Source: Erysipelotrichia bacterium
GTDB lineage: Bacteria; Bacillota_I; Bacilli_A; Erysipelotrichales; Erysipelotrichaceae
Assembly: GCA_009916335.1 (NCBI GenBank)
Contig: SAAR01000035.1
Location: 1 to 16,684, forward strand
Direction: 5' to 3'
DNA length: 16,684 nt
The notes under the pieces were generated by a model. The model worked only from the letters and a program-made list of their open reading frames with translations. It had not been told where the DNA came from and did no database searches. Position 1 is the first letter of the stretch. Each line of letters begins with the position of its first letter. This document shows, one piece after another, positions 1,909 through 15,103 of this stretch. Position numbers and translations under genes: made by a program.

Positions 1909-2597
1909 ATGGTGATCAATATTGGGATTTGCGATGATGAATCGCATTACTTAGAAAAAATGGAAAAACTAATTGCAGATTATTTTAAAAGAAGTGATAA
2001 TCAGTGCTTTATTACAAAATATAAAGATGGAGAAGAGCTTTTAAACAAAAGAGCTAAGTTAGATATTTTATTTTTAGATATTGAAATGAAAAAAATGAGT
2101 GGGATAGAGATTAAAAATAAGTTGGAGATGTATTGTGATAATTGCAAAATTATATTTGTGTCAAATTATGATAATAGAATGAAGGAGGCATTTGGGAAAA
2201 ATGTAATCGCATTTATAAGTAAAAGCAAGATAGATGCTATCATTTATTATTTGGCATGCATCGAAAGAGAATTAAAGGAACACAAAATTATAAAATTTGG
2301 AAATTATCAAGTTGATATTTTTGATGTAATCTATATCAAAGCAGAAGGTTCCTATGTTAATATTATTACCAAATTTGAAAAATATATATGTTGTATTTAT
2401 CTGTCTGATGTATTGGCAAAACTGCCAATTTCCTCTTTTTTAAAAGGCATAGATCATATATTGTCAATTTGCGTTATCTAAGAAATGTGGATAAAAAGGG
2501 ATTGCTTTTAAATAATGGAATAAAAATACCTATCTCAAGAAACAGTCAGAAAAAGGTATTAGAAAAATATTTTGAATATATAAGGAACACAAATTAA
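1909..2597 (+). pseudogene. LytTR-family response regulator, frameshifted
   Basis: The first frame gives a 190-aa product ending at 2481. Residues 1-115 are a receiver domain with the acidic pair D9-D10, the phospho-acceptor D57 (ILFLDIEM), S85 and K105. A LytTR DNA-binding domain follows from about residue 120 but stops midway. In another frame, from 2448, the text continues as HRSYIVNLRYLRNV, then ISRNSQKKVLEKY, ending at TAA 2595-2597, which is exactly the second half of a LytTR domain. One extra T in the run at 2436-2441 (six Ts) would join the halves as FFKRHRSYIVN and give about 229 aa, the normal length. The cut product keeps the receiver but lacks most of the DNA-binding domain. No histidine kinase lies nearby. 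The lesion may be real decay, slippage or a sequencing error in the homopolymer. Confidence 0.88.
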
Positions 2598-2694
2598 GCA
2601 CCTCGGTGTGCATTATGTGCAGGCGTTCGTATTTACATTTTTAATAGAAAATGGTGAAGTATAAGTTAAAATGAATAATTAAAAAAGTAAGGGC

Positions 2695-2745
2695 GATTAT
2701 ATTTATTAAACGAATATATGTTAAATTTGTTTAATAAATATAATC
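2695..2745. repeat. Perfect 17-bp inverted repeat, 17-base loop
   Basis: GATTATATTTATTAAAC (2695-2711) and GTTTAATAAATATAATC (2729-2745) are exact reverse complements around a 17-base AT-rich loop. It lies behind the broken regulator and about 230 bases before the next gene. It lacks a flanking T-run and GC content, so it is not a typical terminator. It could be a protein-binding palindrome or a relic of an element end. Confidence 0.75.
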
Positions 2746-2901
2746 AATGGAAGATTTTTAAACGTCAATAGTATAATAGAATATCATAATAGTATATTTT
2801 ATTGATAATCCTATAAGTACGGTGGATAGTATCGATTTTGATAAGTATGAATAAATATTATGAGTGACGCTCGTGCCTTTTTGTACCACTTATAGCATTT
2901 T

Positions 2902-2931
2902 TTGACAACTCACAAAATATAACTTTACATT
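2902..2931 (+). promoter_or_regulatory. Possible promoter for small membrane-protein genes
   Basis: A perfect -35 box TTGACA (2902-2907) is followed 18 bases later by a weak -10 box TACATT (2926-2931). The -10 box overlaps the left arm of the 9-bp inverted repeat. An alternative -10, TATAAA at 2945-2950, would need a different -35. Confidence 0.4.
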
Positions 2932-2968
2932 CTATTTTTTTCTCTATAAAATTGACTTGTAGAATGTA
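2926..2968. repeat. 9-bp inverted repeat over promoter and leader
   Basis: TACATTCTA (2926-2934) and TAGAATGTA (2960-2968) are exact reverse complements with a 25-base spacer. One arm covers the proposed -10 box and the other abuts the ribosome binding site of the gene at 2978, a position suited to an operator or to masking of translation. Confidence 0.5.
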
Positions 2969-2977
2969 GGAAAGATT

Positions 2978-3304
2978 ATGTATATGTTATTGTTAAATAA
3001 TCACTCTTTTATAGAAGAAAAGTTTAAAAGAACCATTACGAATAAATGGTTTTGGTGTGCATTCGCGTTAGTGCTACTAATTGGTTTATTGGCGATAAAC
3101 AGTATTAGTCCATATCTTTATTCATTAGCTATTCTATTGGTCTCGCTAATTATAGGGTTCCTATTTCCAAAATCAATGAGCAATATAAATGAAACCATTT
3201 CAGCATTTTTAGTAATGCTTATGCTTATGATTTTGTCAATGTTAGCAAATATAAAGTGGACATTAGTTCCTATCATAATACTACTTATCATTATTTTATA
3301 TTGA
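2978..3304 (+). CDS. Small hydrophobic membrane protein, unknown
   Basis: 108 aa, not recognised. A short charged N-terminus (EEKFKRTITNK, about residues 13-23) is followed by roughly four hydrophobic segments at about 25-42, 46-65, 73-91 and 93-108; the last ends at the stop. AGGAAAG lies shortly before the ATG; a second in-frame ATG two codons later is possible. It opens a three-gene row of small proteins with spacings of 29 and 3 bases, behind a broken response regulator. It may be a membrane part of a peptide-immunity or transport module, but nothing in the sequence proves this. It could also be the remainder of a larger protein. Confidence 0.6.
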   Translation: MYMLLLNNHSFIEEKFKRTITNKWFWCAFALVLLIGLLAINSISPYLYSLAILLVSLIIGFLFPKSMSNINETISAFLVMLMLMILSMLANIKWTLVPIIILLIIILY

Positions 3305-3333
3305 ATAATAAAAAAAGAATTTGAGGTGAGAAA

Positions 3334-3591
3334 ATGAAACAGTTAAAATATGCTGGATATGCGTCATTAATTTGGATCGTGCTTTTTTTATTTGATTATA
3401 TATATCACCTTTTCCAAATTGAGAAAAGTGGAGTTGTTACTACTTTAATGGGGTTAAAAATCACGACTGAAATGACAATTAGTGAATTAAATACACAATT
3501 TTCATTAACAATACAAGCTTTACTTATATACATTATTTTTATAGCAATATGTGTTGCTCTCTTTACTGTCGCTAGGAAGAAGAAAGGATGA
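3334..3591 (+). CDS. Small two-helix membrane protein, unknown
   Basis: 85 aa, not recognised. It has two transmembrane helices (about residues 9-28 and 60-79) joined by a polar loop with several threonines, and a basic C-terminal tail (RKKKG), which suggests the tail is cytoplasmic. A good ribosome binding site (GAGGTGAG) precedes the ATG. The next reading frame starts 3 bases after its stop, so the two are probably translated from one message. Confidence 0.65.
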   Translation: MKQLKYAGYASLIWIVLFLFDYIYHLFQIEKSGVVTTLMGLKITTEMTISELNTQFSLTIQALLIYIIFIAICVALFTVARKKKG

Positions 3592-3594
3592 GAT

Positions 3595-3774
3595 ATGGGG
3601 AATGAGACTATCATAATACTGTTTATATATGTGGTATCCATCCCCGTTGTTGTTGCAGTTCATGAATTTATTCATTGTATTTTTGCGATTTTATTCAAAA
3701 GAAATCCGAACACAATAGTGTCTAAATACCTCACATTTTCTATATGTTATAAGTTCGTGGGGAAAACTCTATAG
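3595..3774 (+). pseudogene. Short HExxH zinc-peptidase-like protein, probably truncated
   Basis: 59 aa, too short for most gene callers. A hydrophobic segment (residues 5-22) leads directly into H23-E24-F25-I26-H27, the HExxH zinc-binding motif, inside VVVAVHEFIH. This arrangement matches membrane-embedded putative zinc peptidases such as DUF3267, which are usually much longer (about 150-200 aa, from memory). Here the frame ends in TAG at 3772 without the third zinc ligand or further helices. AAAGGATGAG precedes the ATG, so it is probably translated or was so recently. I read it as the start of a decayed peptidase gene. A genuine mini-protein is less likely. Confidence 0.5.
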
Positions 3775-3819
3775 CTTGCTATGAGGATGAAAGTCATTAA
3801 CACAAAGGACACAAAGTTC

Positions 3820-4173
3820 ATGAGTAATAAAAAAAATATTTATTGATTATACAGGAGAAGAAGATTTTGTAGTTCCATTTTTAATTAATATAGATGGAAA
3901 TGGATCTATAAAAACTCATGTGGGAACCCTGTCTAATCACAATGCTAGAGTACATAAAATGTCTAAGCTTCAACGTGAGCAGTTGTATAAGCAATTGGTC
4001 ATTCTCGTTGACAATAAAAACATGGGGGAAGTCACAGGAAAATAGATTTTAGGGGCAAAATTCAATAGAAAGGTACATTTTTTAATTAGCCTTTATGAGA
4101 AGTTCAAGGGCATGATAGAGATTTAAAAAAGATGCTCCAAAGATATGAAGTGCTAGATGAACAAGTCAAATAG
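3820..4173 (+). pseudogene. Decayed gene fragments, unknown family
   Basis: Several protein-like stretches follow one another on the plus strand, broken by lesions. ATG at 3820 reads MSNKK and then runs out of frame after eight As (3829-3836). With seven As it would continue as IFIDYTGEEDFVVPFLINID for 74 aa to TAG at 4043-4045. The same frame after that stop reads ILGAKFNRKVHFLISLYEKF, and a neighbouring frame then gives HDRDLKKMLQRYEVLDEQVK, ending at TAG 4171-4173. Joined, these would make about 115 residues of ordinary composition. I do not recognise the family. Two frameshifts and one stop would be needed, so it is either dead or not one gene. Confidence 0.35.
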
Positions 4174-4260
4174 CGAGGTATAGGCATCATCAGATATGGT
4201 ATGGAAATAGAAATACTCTATTTACATTTGAGAGTATACCACTATATAAAATCAAAATGA

Positions 4261-4290
4261 TTGACAATAGGCTAATGAAAGTGCTATCAT
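4261..4290 (+). promoter_or_regulatory. Strong promoter of EIIAB operon
   Basis: Perfect -35 TTGACA (4261-4266), an 18-base spacer and -10 TATCAT (4285-4290). Transcription would begin near 4297, just before the RAT element. Confidence 0.85.
4275..4290 (+). promoter_or_regulatory. cre site (CcpA operator) over the -10 box
   Basis: ATGAAAGTGCTATCAT matches the Gram-positive cre consensus WTGNAANCGNWNNCAW at every fixed position except the central C, which is T. It covers the spacer and the -10 box, a position at which CcpA binding would repress. This predicts catabolite repression of the PTS operon. Confidence 0.65.
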
Positions 4291-4310
4291 GAAAATGTAA
4301 ATTGAATAGA

Positions 4311-4343
4311 GGTAGTGTGTAACTGTTAAGCAGGCATTAACTA
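4311..4343 (+). promoter_or_regulatory. RAT-type ribonucleic antiterminator
   Basis: The leader reads GTGTAACTG, four to five bases, then GCAGGCATTAAC, which closely resembles RAT elements bound by BglG/SacY/LicT/GlcT proteins (G-TTACTG ... GCAGGC-). Pairing of TAGT (4313-4316) with ACTA (4340-4343) and of CTG (4323-4325) with CAG (4331-4333) gives the expected two short stems with internal loops. It overlaps the 5' arm of the downstream terminator, as such elements do. The obvious reader is the antiterminator encoded at 745-1578, though another may exist elsewhere in the genome. Confidence 0.8.
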
Positions 4344-4419
4344 TTTTATTGAGTAGAGATACGATTTTGTATCTTTTTGGACTATTCCATACTTACTAAA
4401 ATAAGATGCCTGCTTTTTT
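4328..4419 (+). terminator. Leader terminator overlapping RAT
   Basis: AAGCAGGCAT (4328-4337) pairs perfectly with ATGCCTGCTT (4406-4415), followed by a T-run to 4419. The 68-base loop contains a second hairpin, AGATAC/GTATCT (4357-4362 with 4369-4374), itself followed by Ts. Either can end transcription unless the RAT is held by its protein. Confidence 0.8.
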
Positions 4420-4486
4420 GGTTTATCTACTTATTTATCTATTCAACATTTGCGTAGGACATTTAAAAAGAAAAGGAGGAATTTTA

Positions 4487-5647
4487 ATGGTAGGAATTGT
4501 TCTTGCGAGTCATGGCGAATTCGCAAATGGGATTCTACAATCGGGTGCTATGATTTTTGGTGAACAAAAAAATGTAAAAGCAATCACATTAGCACCTAGT
4601 GAAGGGCCTGAAAGTCTCAAGGCAAAAATGGAGGCGGCTGTCTCTACATTTGAAGATCAAGAAAATGTGCTATTCTTGGTTGATTTGTGGGGAGGTACAC
4701 CCTTTAATCAGTCAAATATGCTAATTGAAGGACATGAAGATAGATGGGCCATTGTAACAGGGTTGAATTTACCTATGTTGATTGAGGCATATGCATCTCG
4801 TATGTCTATGAATTCAGCTCATGAGATTGCGACACATGTAGCAAAGGTTGCTAAAGAAGGGGTTAAAACAAAGCCAGAATCACTAGAACCTAAAGAGGAA
4901 AAAGCTAAGGGAGCGAATGCAAACACAAGATTTACTGGTGGGATCCCTGAGGGAACTGTGTTAGGAGCTGGAAAAATTAAATATGTATTAGCACGTATTG
5001 ATACTCGTTTATTACATGGACAGGTGGCAACAACTTGGACAAAAACAACACAACCAGATCGTATCATCGTTGTGTCGGATGCTGTAGCGAAAGATACATT
5101 GCGAAAAAACATGATGGAGGAAGCAGCTCCACCAGGGGTAAAAGCAAATGTTATACCAATTGATAAAATGATTCAAGTGGCTAAAGATCCACGTTTTGGT
5201 GCGACAAAAGCAATGTTGTTGTTTGAAACACCACAAGATGCACTACAAGCAATTGAAGGTGGAGTTGAGATTAAAGAGTTAAATCTTGGGTCAATAGCGC
5301 ATTCATTAGGAAAAGTGGTCGTGAACAAAGCCATCGCTATGGATGGTGAAGATGTGAAGGCAATTGAAGCACTAATGAATAAAGGAATTAAATTTGATGT
5401 TCGAAAAGTTCCTGCTGGAGTGGTGGCAGTGGCAAACAAGTATCATAAACCATGTATTTGCATTAGTGGGGCATTGGGGTTACAATATAAAAAGCTTTAT
5501 CAGCTAGGCTTTATTGGTATTTATAGCGTTGCTGATCGAGCGATGAGTTTTTCACAGGCACTAGAAGGAGCAAAAGAAAAATTAGAAGCTGCAACGTATA
5601 GCATTGTGAAAACAATTATGTATTTTATCAATAAGGAGGACTTATGA
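4487..5647 (+). CDS. PTS mannose-family EIIAB fused to glycerate-kinase C-terminus
   Basis: 386 aa from the ATG at 4487, chosen because AAGGAGGA (4473-4480) lies six bases before it; the in-frame ATG at 4406 sits inside the terminator. Residues 1-125 are a mannose-type EIIA, with phospho-histidine H9 (LASHGEF) and DLWGGTPFN. Residues 126-160 are a charged linker. Residues 163-309 are EIIB, with phospho-histidine H177 (RIDTRLLHGQ), running to FDVRKVPA. A normal EIIB ends about 17 residues later. Here it continues as GVVAVANKYHKPCICISGAL and GFIGIYSVAD, then a helical tail, which matches the last 75 or so residues of GlxK/GarK-type glycerate kinases. The join is near nucleotide 5405-5425. No EIIC or EIID gene follows, so sugar transport by this locus alone is unlikely. 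EIIAB phosphorylation may persist. A deletion joining two genes is the simplest origin. Confidence 0.88.
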   Translation: MVGIVLASHGEFANGILQSGAMIFGEQKNVKAITLAPSEGPESLKAKMEAAVSTFEDQENVLFLVDLWGGTPFNQSNMLIEGHEDRWAIVTGLNLPMLIEAYASRMSMNSAHEIATHVAKVAKEGVKTKPESLEPKEEKAKGANANTRFTGGIPEGTVLGAGKIKYVLARIDTRLLHGQVATTWTKTTQPDRIIVVSDAVAKDTLRKNMMEEAAPPGVKANVIPIDKMIQVAKDPRFGATKAMLLFETPQDALQAIEGGVEIKELNLGSIAHSLGKVVVNKAIAMDGEDVKAIEALMNKGIKFDVRKVPAGVVAVANKYHKPCICISGALGLQYKKLYQLGFIGIYSVADRAMSFSQALEGAKEKLEAATYSIVKTIMYFINKEDL

Positions 5648-6132
5648 AAAAAATAGGAATTTTGTTTCTTTGTTTGCTTTGCGTGTCATTAAGTGCATGT
5701 GGTAAAGATGAAGAAGTAATGGACACATTTATTGGGACACCTCACATTTTTGTTGTAGAGGAAGGTCAAATTGTGGCAAGTGTTTCGCCAGGAGATGGCT
5801 CAGAAGGGAGTGGTCATGGTGAATATTTTAGCTCTAAAGAAAGTTTTGATCGCTTGATGAATCAATATAAAATGGTTGATAAAGATCAAAAAGAAGGAGA
5901 AATCATTAATATCCACTATGCTGATTTTGTGGAAATGATGGATAAAAAAACAAGTTTTGTGGCCATTGCAACACAAACGACATGCGGGCATTGCCTTTCC
6001 TTTAAAGAGAATGTGTTAGATGATTATATTAAAAATAATGGAATTAAAATTTATGAAATTAACTTTACGTTAGAAGCCTCTAGTGATGTCGCAAAAGCAG
6101 CATTTGAGGAAATGAAAGAGCTAGTGAAATAA
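5644..6132 (+). CDS. Thioredoxin-like lipoprotein
   Basis: 162 aa. A type II signal peptide with lipobox L16-S17-A18-C19 predicts a lipid-anchored protein on the outside of the membrane. A flexible Gly/Ser-rich part follows, then a thioredoxin-like fold with a C114-G-H-C117 redox motif in TTCGHCLSFKENV. It would act as a thiol reductase or oxidase of surface proteins. The start overlaps the previous stop by 4 bases (ATGA), with AAGGAGG before it, so the two genes are translationally coupled, an odd pairing with a PTS protein. The protein ends about 45 residues after CGHC, without the usual TPT-type cis-proline segment and final strands of a thioredoxin fold, so it may be truncated at the C-terminus. 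Confidence 0.8.
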   Translation: MKKIGILFLCLLCVSLSACGKDEEVMDTFIGTPHIFVVEEGQIVASVSPGDGSEGSGHGEYFSSKESFDRLMNQYKMVDKDQKEGEIINIHYADFVEMMDKKTSFVAIATQTTCGHCLSFKENVLDDYIKNNGIKIYEINFTLEASSDVAKAAFEEMKELVK

Positions 6133-6145
6133 GAATGTTAAAAAC

Positions 6146-6176
6146 GAAAGAAACACCTAGTGTTTCTTTTCATTTT
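6146..6176 (+). terminator. Intrinsic terminator of EIIAB-lipoprotein unit
   Basis: AAAGAAACAC (6147-6156) pairs with GTGTTTCTTT (6160-6169) around a 3-base loop, followed by T-rich sequence. Confidence 0.85.
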
Positions 6177-6212
6177 ATGTTATCATAGTAATATCGAAAT
6201 GAAAGAAGGCTG

Positions 6213-6232
6213 AAATGTTTGCAGAAACATTT
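6213..6232. repeat. 8-bp palindromic hairpin upstream of PPase-like gene
   Basis: AAATGTTT and AAACATTT flank a GCAG loop, 47 bases before the start codon at 6279. No T-run follows. It could be an operator or a leader hairpin. Confidence 0.5.
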
Positions 6233-6278
6233 TACAAAATAAAAAGAACCACTTTCAAATAAGCAAAGGAGACAACCT

Positions 6279-6668
6279 ATGAATGAATTAGAAAATAATG
6301 CATTATTCTGGCAGAAATTAGATACAATCTATCTGTCAAGTAAGCTAGAAATCGATCGTCCTAAATATACTTGTCACTATAAGTATTCTAATCTGATTTA
6401 TCCTGTGGACTATGGTTATTTAAAAGATACAGTAGGCTCTGATATGAAGCCAATCGATGTATTCAAAGGCTCAATGAAATCTACACAGGTACAAGCGGCT
6501 TTAATGAGTGCAGATATTTTAAAGAAAGATTGTGAAGTGAAATTGATTGTCGGCTGTACAGAAGAAGAAATGTATGATATTTTAGTATTTTTGAATCAAA
6601 CAGATTTTCAAAAGGCGGTATTAATGAAAAGAAACAATGAAGTACCTGAATGGGGAAGTAACGATTAA
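6279..6668 (+). CDS. Small inorganic-pyrophosphatase-like protein
   Basis: 129 aa, shorter than classical soluble pyrophosphatases (about 175 aa). Residues 24-63 follow the type I pyrophosphatase pattern: an EIDRPK segment, the YPVDYGYL signature (41-48) and SDMKPIDVF (54-62), which corresponds to the catalytic GDGDPLDV. D55 and D60 align with the first and third aspartates, but the second is K57. The later acidic cluster and C-terminal active-site Tyr-Lys pair are not evident. Catalysis of PPi hydrolysis is therefore doubtful, and it may belong to a family of short paralogs with another role. AAAGGAG precedes the ATG. It appears to be a single-gene unit closed by a terminator that overlaps its stop codon. 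Confidence 0.7.
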   Translation: MNELENNALFWQKLDTIYLSSKLEIDRPKYTCHYKYSNLIYPVDYGYLKDTVGSDMKPIDVFKGSMKSTQVQAALMSADILKKDCEVKLIVGCTEEEMYDILVFLNQTDFQKAVLMKRNNEVPEWGSND

Positions 6669-7997: not shown

Positions 7998-9308
7998 ATG
8001 AGAGTAAAAATTGAAAAAATGGGGATTAACGGAGAGGGGATTTCCTTTGTAAATCGTCAGCCAGTATTTGTCGATGGGGCAATTGTCAACGAAGAAGTAG
8101 ATATTAAGATTGTTGAGCGTCAGCGTCGATATAGTAAAGGGCAATTACTAAGTGTTGTTAAAAGAAGCAAGGATCGTGTACGCAAGCCATGTAAATATGC
8201 AAATCAGTGTGGAGCTTGTTCATTGATGCATGTAAGCTATGACAAACAGGTGCAAATTAAGTATGATTTATTAAAGGAATCACTGATTAAATATGCACAA
8301 GTAAATCCTCACTGTATACAGAAAGTAGTGAAAAATGAGGAAGTATTAGGGTATCGCAATAGCTTTAAGCTACCGTTTTCGATGGAAAAAGGGAAATTAG
8401 TATGTGGGCTATATAAGCCAAATACGAATTATTTTATCCCTGTTGATCATTGCCTGATTCATGAAACAGGGTTAGAAAGAATCAGAAAAGAATTGCTAAA
8501 GATATTTAATAAATATCATTTAGAGGCATATGATTATAAAAAGAAAAGTGGACTTCGTACATTGGTATTACGGGGGTTTCAAAATCAGTATCAATGTTGT
8601 GTAGTCAGTGGGGAAACACCTTTACCACAAGCTTGTATTGAGGAATGTATGCAAATTGAAGGATTAGTTTCTTTATGGCAAAATTATCATACAGTTAAAA
8701 AAAGTGTCGATTTATTTGGTAAGGTAATGATTCACTTAGCAGGTGAAAAGCAGTTACGCTTAGACTTAAATGGATTAAAGTTAACACTTTCCCCAAAATC
8801 ATTTTTTCAATTGAACACTGCTCAAGCAGAAAAATTGTATGATATTGTGGCGGATATGGTTAGCTGTGGCAATGAATTTGTTGTTGAGGCATATAGTGGG
8901 ATTGGTGCAATTTCTCTTTACATAAAAGATAAGGCAAAAGAAATTGTCGGTATTGAATTTGTGAGTGATGCAGTTAGTAATGCGAATCAAAATGCAAAAC
9001 GCAATCACGCTAAAAATGTTTCTTTTGTGTGTGGAGATGCGGCTGAAAAATTGACGCAGTTATCGAAGAAAAGAAAAATTGATACATTGATTGTTGATCC
9101 ACCTCGCACAGGATTAGATGATGCAATGCTTTCATGTATTATGAAAGGGAAAATGAAACATATTATTTATGTTTCTTGTAATCCATCAACATTAGGTAAA
9201 AACTTAGCAATCTTACAAAAGTATTATCGTGTGGAAAAAATTGTCCCTGTGGACATGTTTTCTAATACTGCTGCGGTTGAGAGTGTTACGCTACTAGTTA
9301 GAAAATAA
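7998..9308 (+). CDS. 23S rRNA (uracil-C5)-methyltransferase, RlmD/RlmCD type
   Basis: 436 aa, full length. Residues 1-55 are a TRAM domain that contacts RNA. C65, C71, C74 and C152 form the iron-sulfur cluster set (KPCKYANQCGACSLMH and DHCLIH). The SAM-binding region includes FVVEAYSGIGAISLYI (294-309) and VGIEFVSDAV (317-326), then LIVDPPRTGLD (364-374). The catalytic cysteine is C394 in YVSCNPSTL, and the general base is E427 in AAVESV, where family members often have HVE. Enzymes of this type methylate uridines such as U747 and U1939 in Gram-positive 23S rRNA; which one cannot be read here. The ATG directly follows the TAA of the BrkB gene. Confidence 0.95.
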   Translation: MRVKIEKMGINGEGISFVNRQPVFVDGAIVNEEVDIKIVERQRRYSKGQLLSVVKRSKDRVRKPCKYANQCGACSLMHVSYDKQVQIKYDLLKESLIKYAQVNPHCIQKVVKNEEVLGYRNSFKLPFSMEKGKLVCGLYKPNTNYFIPVDHCLIHETGLERIRKELLKIFNKYHLEAYDYKKKSGLRTLVLRGFQNQYQCCVVSGETPLPQACIEECMQIEGLVSLWQNYHTVKKSVDLFGKVMIHLAGEKQLRLDLNGLKLTLSPKSFFQLNTAQAEKLYDIVADMVSCGNEFVVEAYSGIGAISLYIKDKAKEIVGIEFVSDAVSNANQNAKRNHAKNVSFVCGDAAEKLTQLSKKRKIDTLIVDPPRTGLDDAMLSCIMKGKMKHIIYVSCNPSTLGKNLAILQKYYRVEKIVPVDMFSNTAAVESVTLLVRK

Positions 9309-12731: not shown

Positions 12732-12797
12732 ATGATTACTTGATTCATTTTTATCAAGAATAAATTGAATATATTTTATTTTGAAAAAGGAGAAAGC

Positions 12798-13916
12798 ATG
12801 AAGAAATTATTCATTGGGTTATTTTCGTTATTATTAGCATCAACATTATTTGTTAGTGATGTTTTCGCTAATACAGAGGAAGTAAAAATTAAAGATGCTT
12901 TATTGAAAGTACAAGCACATTATATGCAAAAAGAAAAGGTTTTATATAGCGTTGATGATGTATTGGCAATTACCAATCTAGGTATTGATGTAAAAAGTAA
13001 CTTTACTTTAATTGAGGATATGTATCAACAAGGTTTTTCCACAATGAAAGTAGGCACATTGGCAAAAACAATTATGGCATTTTCATTGATGGGAGTAGAT
13101 GTTACTAGTGTGAATGGGACGAATCTTGTTGCGTTACTTGAATCCTATGTAAGAGAAGATGGTGCGATTATGTTTTCACAAACAGAAATGGCAGAGCCTA
13201 ATATTGCCGTTTGGTGCTTATATGCTTTATTAGGGGTAGAAAGTGATAAAAGTGGGATTGTTGCTGATGATTTAGCTAAAAAGCAATTAGCAACAGGTGC
13301 GTTTTGGTACTCCTATAATGGAAGTGTAATGGAAGATGAAGCGACTACAGGTTGGGTGATTGAAGCGTTAAGTGTAACAAATAAAGAGCAATATACGGCT
13401 GTGATTGAAAAAGCAATAGCTTTTTTAAAAACGAAACAACAAGTAGATGGTAGCTATGGTGAATGGGGAGCGAGTGCAGATACGCAAGCTGTGGTATTAC
13501 AAGGGTTACTTGCTTATGATGAACAAGGGGTAAAAAGTGGTCGATATGATATTCAGGGGGTAAGTCCTTATGATACATTATTAGCTATGCAAGATGAAAA
13601 TGGTGGTTTTACTTATCTTGATTGGCAAAGTAATGAATATGTATACAGTGCAATGACTACTTATAATGCGGCTCTTTCTTTAGGTACTTATTTTAATGGT
13701 TCTTTTGTATACAAGGTGCAAAATGCTTATCGTGCAATAGAAGAAAGTAAAAAGGGGAATGAAGAAAGCAGTAAGGAAGTAGTAAATGTACAGGAAGAAA
13801 CAAAGGTTAGTGGACCAACGACTGCTGATACAAGTGATGTAACAAGTTGGATTATGTTGATGCTTACTTCTTTCATTTCACTTTTATTTATAAGAAAATA
13901 TCATGCAAAAGCTTAA
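12798..13916 (+). CDS. Secreted alpha/alpha-toroid protein (intrinsic-factor alpha-domain-like)
   Basis: 372 aa from the ATG at 12798, which follows AAAGGAG. Residues 1-24 are a signal peptide, with likely cleavage after VFA. Residues 28-310 contain repeated helix pairs of the prenyltransferase/squalene-cyclase (alpha6/alpha6) type: NIAVWCLYALLG (135-146), TTGWVIEALSV (183-193), QQVDGSYGEWG (214-224), DTQAVVLQGLLAYD (228-241) and MQDENGGFTYLDW (264-276). A polar stalk (315-348) leads to a transmembrane helix (about 350-365) and a basic tail (RKYHAKA), so the protein is held at the outer face of the membrane. The same fold forms the alpha domain of vertebrate intrinsic factor and transcobalamin, and the next gene encodes the beta domain. 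Catalytic DxDD or DDxD motifs of cyclases are not apparent, which favours ligand binding over catalysis. Confidence 0.82.
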   Translation: MKKLFIGLFSLLLASTLFVSDVFANTEEVKIKDALLKVQAHYMQKEKVLYSVDDVLAITNLGIDVKSNFTLIEDMYQQGFSTMKVGTLAKTIMAFSLMGVDVTSVNGTNLVALLESYVREDGAIMFSQTEMAEPNIAVWCLYALLGVESDKSGIVADDLAKKQLATGAFWYSYNGSVMEDEATTGWVIEALSVTNKEQYTAVIEKAIAFLKTKQQVDGSYGEWGASADTQAVVLQGLLAYDEQGVKSGRYDIQGVSPYDTLLAMQDENGGFTYLDWQSNEYVYSAMTTYNAALSLGTYFNGSFVYKVQNAYRAIEESKKGNEESSKEVVNVQEETKVSGPTTADTSDVTSWIMLMLTSFISLLFIRKYHAKA

Positions 13917-14553
13917 AAAGTGGTTTCATTCATTAGATAAAACAAAAAGAGTAGCCTTCTTATTTGTTGGTGTTTCCTTTTTGCTTATCTTATTGATATC
14001 CTTTTACAATATGATGCACCCCTCTACGATAAAAAAGGATAAAGAGGATATTGTCATAGAAAAAGAAACGAGTAAAAAGGAAGAAAAGCAAAAAACAGAT
14101 ACACAAGAAGAAACATCATCTGCACAGATAGAAGTACCTATTGAAAATAAGCAGGAAGAAAGTGAACAGACACAGCAAAATGTTTCACCTACTACCCAAG
14201 TAGCTGCAAGTGATGAAATGGGGAATGAAAATGTAGTTGAGTATGTTAATATATCCATTTCTATTGTTGGTATGAATGATGAGTTAATTGCTAGTGGTAA
14301 TGTGCAAATGGAAAAAGGCAAAAGTGCATATGATGCTTTAGTGCAGTTTGCGAAAGAGAAAAATATTGTTATTACAACGACAGGTTTTGGTCCGTATGTA
14401 TATGTGAGTGGTATCAATGGTTTCAATGAAAGAGAGCATGGAGCGAGTTCAGGTTGGATGTATAAGGTCAATGAAGTAGCACCTAATCAATCAGCAGGTG
14501 AGTGTATCTTAAAAGATCATGATCAAATGCTTTGGTATTATATCTATGATTAA
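13903..14553 (+). CDS. Membrane-anchored DUF4430 protein (transcobalamin beta-domain-like)
   Basis: 216 aa, overlapping the toroid gene by 14 bases. Residues 17-36 are an N-terminal membrane anchor; about 40-110 is a disordered Glu/Lys/Gln/Thr stalk; 115-214 is a DUF4430 domain. The family signs are SAYDALVQFAKE (141-152), GPYVYVSGINGF (163-174), SGWMYKVN (183-190) and a final DHDQMLWYYIYD. DUF4430 is the bacterial counterpart of the beta domain that caps cobalamin in intrinsic factor and transcobalamin. Its placement between a toroid protein and an ECF S component suggests it completes an extracellular binding site and hands the ligand to the transporter. The ligand itself is not shown by the sequence. 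Confidence 0.88.
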   Translation: MQKLKKWFHSLDKTKRVAFLFVGVSFLLILLISFYNMMHPSTIKKDKEDIVIEKETSKKEEKQKTDTQEETSSAQIEVPIENKQEESEQTQQNVSPTTQVAASDEMGNENVVEYVNISISIVGMNDELIASGNVQMEKGKSAYDALVQFAKEKNIVITTTGFGPYVYVSGINGFNEREHGASSGWMYKVNEVAPNQSAGECILKDHDQMLWYYIYD

Positions 14554-15103
14554 ACTAACAAAAACACAAGAAATTGCTTTGATTTCTTTATTAGCTGCCT
14601 TTAATATTGCATCACGCATCTTCTTACAAGGATTCCCTAATATAAAACCTGTTACTTCAATTATTATGATATCAGTATTCATTTTTAATTTAGCGTTTGC
14701 CATCAAATTGTCCATTGTTACTACCATAGTATCTAATCTATTTTTAGGTATGGGTATTTGGACTTTCTTTCAAATACTAGCATGGATTTGTATTGCTTTA
14801 TTAACACAAATCGTTGTTGATGTGTGTGCGAAATATCATCGTAAACCAAACTTGATAGGTATGTCTATCTTTGCTTTTTTTATGGGTTATGTATTTGGTT
14901 TTATTGTTTCTTTAGATAAGTTGATGATAGGTGGACCTACTTTATTTTGGACTTATTATGTATCAGGGCTGGTATTTGATACATTTCATGCAGTGGGAAA
15001 TTTTTTCTTTTATCTGCTGTGTGCCCCTATTCTTTATCAAGTGTTTGTCAAACAAAGTAAGCATATGAGTGATAAAAACAAGTGTAAAAATGCCAATGAC
15101 TAA
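14546..15103 (+). CDS. ECF transporter S component
   Basis: 185 aa from the ATG at 14546, which overlaps the DUF4430 stop by 8 bases; a longer start nine codons upstream lies deeper in that gene. The protein is hydrophobic with about six helices. It begins KLTKTQEIALISLLAAFNIA, the typical first helix of ECF substrate-binding subunits with small residues for docking, and has the family-like GFPNIKPVTSIIMIS and FLGMGIWTFFQILAW segments. It would bind a vitamin-like substrate and work with the shared EcfA, EcfA' and EcfT subunits, which are not in the window. Similarity to the CbrT-like group and the neighbours suggest a corrinoid, by inference only. The C-terminus is polar and basic. Confidence 0.82.
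   Translation: MIKLTKTQEIALISLLAAFNIASRIFLQGFPNIKPVTSIIMISVFIFNLAFAIKLSIVTTIVSNLFLGMGIWTFFQILAWICIALLTQIVVDVCAKYHRKPNLIGMSIFAFFMGYVFGFIVSLDKLMIGGPTLFWTYYVSGLVFDTFHAVGNFFFYLLCAPILYQVFVKQSKHMSDKNKCKNAND

Follow-up and report, generated by a model that had tools for sequence, protein, structure and literature searches.

This locus raises the question of how a single reading frame comes to begin as one protein and to end as another. In the window, by which we mean the whole stretch of 16,684 nucleotides that was analysed, an ORF on the forward strand (4487-5647, 386 amino acids) starts as a mannose-family PTS EIIAB and finishes as the tail of a glycerate kinase. The initial annotation suggested that a deletion through short homology could have joined two genes. 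Here we describe the parts of the frame and the point at which they meet, and then consider whether the join is a functional fusion, a product of recombination, or an artefact.

Parts of the reading frame and the point of the join

The chimera divides into an EIIAB-Man coding part (4487..5416, + strand) and the last 80 codons plus the stop codon of a GlxK-type glycerate kinase (5405..5647, + strand), the latter in frame with the former. In the Pfam search, residues 3-115 match the EIIA-man domain (E 3.1e-33; 114.8 bits against a curated cut-off of 21.4) and residues 167-310 match the PTSIIB_sorb domain (E 1.8e-49; 168.3 bits against a cut-off of 27). The Gly_kinase match lies at residues 307-377 and corresponds to profile positions 301-371 of 372; its E value is 8.3e-12 with the whole chimera and 5.1e-13 with the last 80 residues alone, and the kinase similarity of the tail claimed initially is thus upheld by profile searching. 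In addition, P0121 and P0122, two full-length glycerate kinases of 380 amino acids, each agree with the tail at 71 of 80 positions. With the EIIA-man and PTSIIB_sorb matches above their cut-offs and this level of identity, the assignment of residues 1-310 to a ManX-type EIIAB and of the C-terminus to a GlxK-type kinase is borne out. The NCBIfam models behave in the same way, each being matched in part and below its whole-protein cut-off: the EIIAB model PRK15088 at positions 3-309 of 323, and the glycerate kinase model TIGR00045 at positions 302-372 of 375. Among solved structures, the EIIB part matches the mannose-specific EIIAB/EIIB chains 2jzh and 1vsq (E 7.5e-41 and 8.4e-41), and the kinase tail matches the glycerate kinase 3cwc weakly (E 0.00074).

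Both parts are well preserved as far as they go. The EIIAB part keeps 91 of the 94 residues that are invariant in 38 relatives, including H9 in EIIA and H177 in EIIB, which are invariant in the alignment including the chimera and which we take to be the phosphorylated histidines of the two domains. The tail keeps all 28 residues that are invariant in 26 kinases. What is missing is the first 300 residues of the kinase, with 61 of its 89 invariant residues, so that Gly_kinase is not matched at full length, and the end of EIIB, where the residues that usually follow RKVPx are replaced. This truncation had been noted initially and is confirmed, but it amounts to 20 residues rather than about 17: among the listed EIIAB relatives that bear the motif, 87 of 114 have exactly 20 residues beyond it. 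Profile searches of the window ORFs scanned gave no match to EIIC or EIID, in agreement with the earlier statement that both are missing.

The two parts meet at codons for KVPA (5405-5416), which fit EIIB (RKVPA) and the kinase (GKVPAG) in the same frame. Close EIIAB relatives (P0002 and P0005) read ...FDVRKVPADSGENINNLIKKAK... at this place and end soon after, the closest kinases (P0121, P0122, and P0123) read ...IYGKVPAGVVAVAN..., and the chimera reads ...FDVRKVPAGVVAVANKYHKPCICISGALGL... across the join; the window contains the word AAAGTTCCTGCT a single time. Judging from the protein families, the KVPA codons are expected in both parents, and the shared stretch (5403..5417, + strand) comprises at most 15 nt, of which the flanking bases contribute at most 3 on the assumption that the parents had the residues of these relatives. 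RKVP is followed by A, S, T or G in 114 of the 119 EIIAB relatives listed (A in 45), and the 78 kinases listed contain GKxPxG in 76 cases, GKVPxG in 71, and GKVPAG in 16. The proposal that the join falls on a short stretch common to both families therefore holds at protein level, with the refinement that this stretch is KVPA and not P-A alone.

Reach of the architecture and the expected product

If the fusion were a conserved functional protein, with the kinase tail serving EIIAB as a binding or regulatory module, other genomes should be expected to carry it. In a search with the whole chimera, 7995 candidates were scored and 6967 passed, and among the best 120 listed only P0001, the protein of the window itself, has all three domains. 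A second search used residues 311-386 as the query against 135 candidates chosen by whole-protein length; its 79 matches are P0001 and 78 proteins with Gly_kinase as their sole precomputed domain. The expectation that the architecture is not conserved across genera is thus sustained within these two sets. No exact junction and no relatives were found in viral contigs, plasmids gave no match, and a literature search (titles and starts of abstracts) yielded no report of a fusion of EIIAB with a glycerate kinase. As far as these searches reach, the architecture stands alone, and it looks like a one-off rather than a domain family.

The open frame and the full set of invariant residues in the tail favour a functional fusion. 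Against it stand, besides the lack of a like architecture, the origin of the tail as a kinase end without the part that holds most of the invariant residues, and the failure of the tail to be modelled with confidence. When AlphaFold2 was run with EIIAB relatives only, an alignment in which the tail has no relatives, the mean pLDDT was 63.3. Of the 26 ten-residue blocks in residues 1-120 and 161-300, 20 reached 70; residues 269-284 were weak. In the tail, pLDDT fell below 50 over 306-353 and 369-386, which with such an alignment says little about its fold. A mixed alignment of EIIAB and kinase relatives gave a poor model (mean pLDDT 49.5). On balance, we regard a conserved functional fusion as very improbable.

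Judging from the gene content, the most probable result is a kinase without activity and an EIIAB without its permease. The kinase would be lost because its first 300 residues are gone, and the PTS permease would be lost because EIIC and EIID do not follow EIIAB. Phosphotransfer within EIIAB may still be possible, since both H9 and H177 are present. One can also imagine that a single recombination event gave rise to a new regulatory protein, made from the promoter and leader of EIIAB, in which EIIAB works as a soluble phosphocarrier without a permease and the tail taken from the kinase provides a new partner or ligand; we give this idea hardly any credence.

Among the named relatives of the two halves are Longibaculum, Thomasclavelia saccharogumia, Breznakia, and Erysipelotrichaceae, which makes an uncultured member of the Erysipelotrichales the likely source. 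The closest are at similar identity (87% at best for EIIAB and 88% for the kinase tail, among the matches listed), and the closest relatives of both halves appear to belong to one clade. The chimera and the downstream lipoprotein and RlmD (see below) are each listed on two contigs, of which the window is the longest.

Other EIIAB chimeras do occur. Six of the 119 EIIAB relatives listed carry the ends of other genes, on contigs of 1.5-1.9 kb: P0042 and P0044, which are two variants, combine EIIAB with the end of a sugar ABC ATPase, and P0111, P0112, P0114, and P0117, which are four variants, combine it with part of QueA. Either a recurrent artefact or a real hotspot could account for these six records. 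P0120 is a different case, in which EIIAB runs into EIIC.

Genes on either side of the join

As a proxy for linkage, we used identity in the size of the longest contig given for each protein; one size is shown for each, and real linkage could be missed. On the right side, a gene for a thioredoxin-like lipoprotein (5644..6132, + strand) overlaps the stop codon of the chimera with its start (ATGA), and the gene for RlmD, the 23S rRNA uracil-1939 methyltransferase, follows at 7998..9308 (+ strand). A query joining the lipoprotein (5644-6129) to the first 100 residues of RlmD gave 36 matches. Kinase P0122, lipoprotein P0204, and RlmD P0211 share a longest-contig size of 6006; kinase P0125, lipoprotein P0209, and RlmD P0210 share 11289; and kinase P0121 and lipoprotein P0200 share 2714. 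The sources agree within each of these sets. Allowing offsets of up to 100 bases, there are three kinase-lipoprotein matches against 0.005 expected and two kinase-RlmD matches against 0.04. Note that these expectations are rough, because an impossible match also occurred at 0.005 expected: lipoprotein P0201 and RlmD P0223 share a size of 1723 bases, although their sources differ and the two genes together exceed that length, and this pair was set aside as chance. For this reason, weight is put on the two agreements that involve three genes. In the clade, glxK seems to stand in a conserved neighbourhood with the genes for the thioredoxin-like lipoprotein and RlmD, with three genes in two relatives and the first two in a third, and from the same-size contigs we infer that everything from the kinase tail onward is a native glxK neighbourhood.

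Farther downstream, at 12765-15103, a protein with a weak likeness to the C-terminal domains of squalene-hopene cyclase, one with DUF4430, and one that weakly matches ECF transporter substrate components stand in a row, which we take to resemble a vitamin uptake cluster.

The left side gives a different picture. The initial annotation supposed that EIIAB, EIIC, and EIID had once been close neighbours of glxK; a local deletion, as a special case of recombination, would then have removed the DNA between two KVPA stretches in an ancestral order EIIAB-EIIC-EIID-...-glxK on one strand. In keeping with this, both gene ends lie on the same strand in the window, and one EIIAB (P0082) and one kinase (P0174) share a longest-contig size of 8623. 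This single coincidence compares with 0.17 expected, and as evidence of linkage it was judged to be chance. P0068, an EIIAB very similar to P0082, is found on 166 contigs, and the most for any kinase listed is 54. Same-size contigs of EIIAB with the lipoprotein (0.04 expected) or with RlmD (0.22 expected) numbered zero. The EIIAB relatives listed at 86-87% identity include contigs of up to 34 kb. The proxy therefore provides no credible link of EIIAB to the kinase, the lipoprotein, or RlmD, and the former closeness of the genes is not supported.

The positions of the two genes were also compared in the class of Sporolactobacillus, in which a close EIIAB (1e-95) is found in 43 of 398 genomes and a kinase match (0.001) in 368 of 398. 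Both genes are listed in six genomes (G131, G153, G210, G246, G281, and G293), a small sample, most kinase matches being outside those listed. In none of the six were the two genes seen within 20 kb: they are about 880 kb apart in one and about 56 kb apart in another, and in the other four they lie on different contigs, some near contig ends. Searches at the level of class, phylum, and order brought up no genome with a close kinase or RlmD, the best kinase match by E value being 38% identical and the highest among those listed 39%. At 1e-90 the kinase was found in 0 of 398 genomes in a search without a positive control, and at 1e-70 in 2 of 246, at 34% and 36% identity; RlmD at 1e-85 was found in 0 of 199, again without a positive control. 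In three genomes, G006, G263, and G388, EIIAB is 72-74% identical to Longibaculum P0020, as against 58-70% for the other 40 matches listed. Given the placement of the genes in the six genomes and the chance level of the 8623 coincidence, we consider a local deletion unlikely. Since EIIAB was not seen linked to the glxK neighbourhood in relatives, a larger rearrangement (a larger deletion, an inversion, or another kind) or an artefact would otherwise be needed.

Upstream of the frame, the best sigma-70-like promoter match in the region scanned lies at 4261..4290 (+ strand; TTGACA, 18 nt, TATCAT, with TG before the -10) and agrees at 11 of 12 positions. The initial annotation considered both frame and promoter to be intact. 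This stands for the frame, which is open; the promoter is weakly supported, because nine sites of this kind occur in 3900-6300, where shuffling predicts 8.9. Between this site and EIIAB lies a structured leader (4328..4419, + strand), a possible attenuator, whose outer stem has 11 bp and leads into a T run. The region 4310-4425 folds at -35.5 kcal/mol, compared with -19.96 (sd 3.15) for shuffled sequences (z -4.93), and no Rfam family reaches its gathering score there. One EIIAB relative, P0050, has an N-terminal extension, MPAFL, that resembles the reading just upstream in the window, and this likeness suggests that the second arm of the leader stem is conserved.

The window opens with the end of a glucose/beta-glucoside-type PTS protein (the end of EIIB plus EIIA, 2-739), followed by a GlcT/LicT-type antiterminator (745-1578) that scores below the equivalog cut-offs. 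Just upstream of the leader region, 1909-4050 contains a cluster of broken genes. In particular, a LytTR response regulator is broken into two frames (LytTR positions 4-49 in one, 45-96 in the other) close to a T6A4 run (2436-2445). A DUF3267/M50-like remnant is seen at 3592 (E 0.00038, below its cut-off).

Origin of the join and its relation to known systems

Third-position GC is similar throughout: 0.258 in the EIIAB part, 0.296 in the tail, 0.257 in the two upstream genes, and 0.253 in the eight downstream genes. The tetranucleotide composition of the left flank correlates with that of two downstream stretches at 0.92 and 0.93, and these two stretches correlate with each other at 0.96. The composition fits one genome without proving a single source for all parts, because the genes upstream (0.317) and downstream (0.334) have a lower overall GC than the EIIAB part (0.399) and the tail (0.374).

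The reading to which we lean, by slightly more than an even chance, is that of a young junction formed in the cell by illegitimate recombination, in which the 3' ends of two genes, one for a mannose-family EIIAB and one for a glycerate kinase, were joined at KVPA. A single event at codons that stand in the same frame in both genes would suffice, and the frame would have been kept by the common reading frame of the shared stretch, not by selection. The right side would be the normal glxK neighbourhood, and the left side would bring the promoter, the leader, and EIIAB. The PTS permease and the kinase would probably be lost in the process, and at best EIIAB would keep a soluble phosphocarrier activity. 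The undecayed state of both halves, their similar third-position GC, and the similar identity of their closest relatives count for this reading, and the broken genes at 1909-4050 fit a decaying locus. That the junction exists in cells is an inference, and so are the type of rearrangement and the functional loss.

The same halves could, however, have been joined outside the cell. Two loci of one organism, or of close relatives, may have been brought together at KVPA by template switching, by a chimeric fragment, or by the assembler, and we give this explanation somewhat less than an even chance. Pristine halves are just what would be expected if nothing ever broke; no second example appears among the matches listed; the source loci of the two halves were not seen linked in relatives; and chimeric records of EIIAB are no rarity in public assemblies, as the six listed above demonstrate, with family matches that overlap at the join. 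The presence of the chimera and of two downstream proteins on two contigs each speaks against an artefact, although the second contig of the chimera may be the same assembly deposited twice. The similarity of third-position GC on both sides also disfavours it. So does the length of the shared stretch: if the parents use the same codons, its 12-15 nt would be shorter than the overlap on which a de Bruijn assembler joins at the usual k >= 21. Altogether, we hold a real junction to be slightly more probable than not, with a chimera of assembly or library preparation close behind.

A real junction would be a clean and recent case of an in-frame chimera that arose at a handful of shared codons, and would show how a frame can be kept without selection. 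An artefact would be a warning that short shared words can give rise to in-frame domain fusions in metagenome contigs. Either way, this seems to be an isolated join of two ordinary genes and gives no pointer to a new domain family.

Compared with Man-family PTS EIIAB proteins (ManX; PF03610 and PF03830), the chimera contains both domains in residues 1-310, but it lacks the usual C-terminal residues, carries a foreign tail of 76 residues, and is accompanied by no EIIC or EIID in the ORFs scanned. With GlxK/GarK-type glycerate kinases (PF02595, TIGR00045), it shares the last 80 residues and not the first 300. The other EIIAB chimeras resemble it in that a closely related EIIAB runs in frame near its end into the end of another gene and the two family matches overlap at the join (P0112 was judged from other evidence, including the search listing); they differ in their partners, in their join points, and in being confined to contigs of 1.5-1.9 kb.

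Junctions at short repeats have been studied in Salmonella. According to Sun et al. (2012; PMC3411829), spontaneous rearrangements were verified for 12 of 15 deletions, 5 of 8 duplications, and 5 of 7 inversions tested, and the deduced microhomology cut-offs were 8 bp or more for deletions, 11 for duplications, and 12 for inversions. Junctions with longer microhomology outnumbered those from simulated chimeric reads in the same study, which tells against an artefact in our case. Those junctions were verified experimentally, whereas the join described here is deduced from protein families and not from parental DNA. Like them, the chimera is joined at a short shared stretch, and its length would lie within the verified range if the parental codons were the same.
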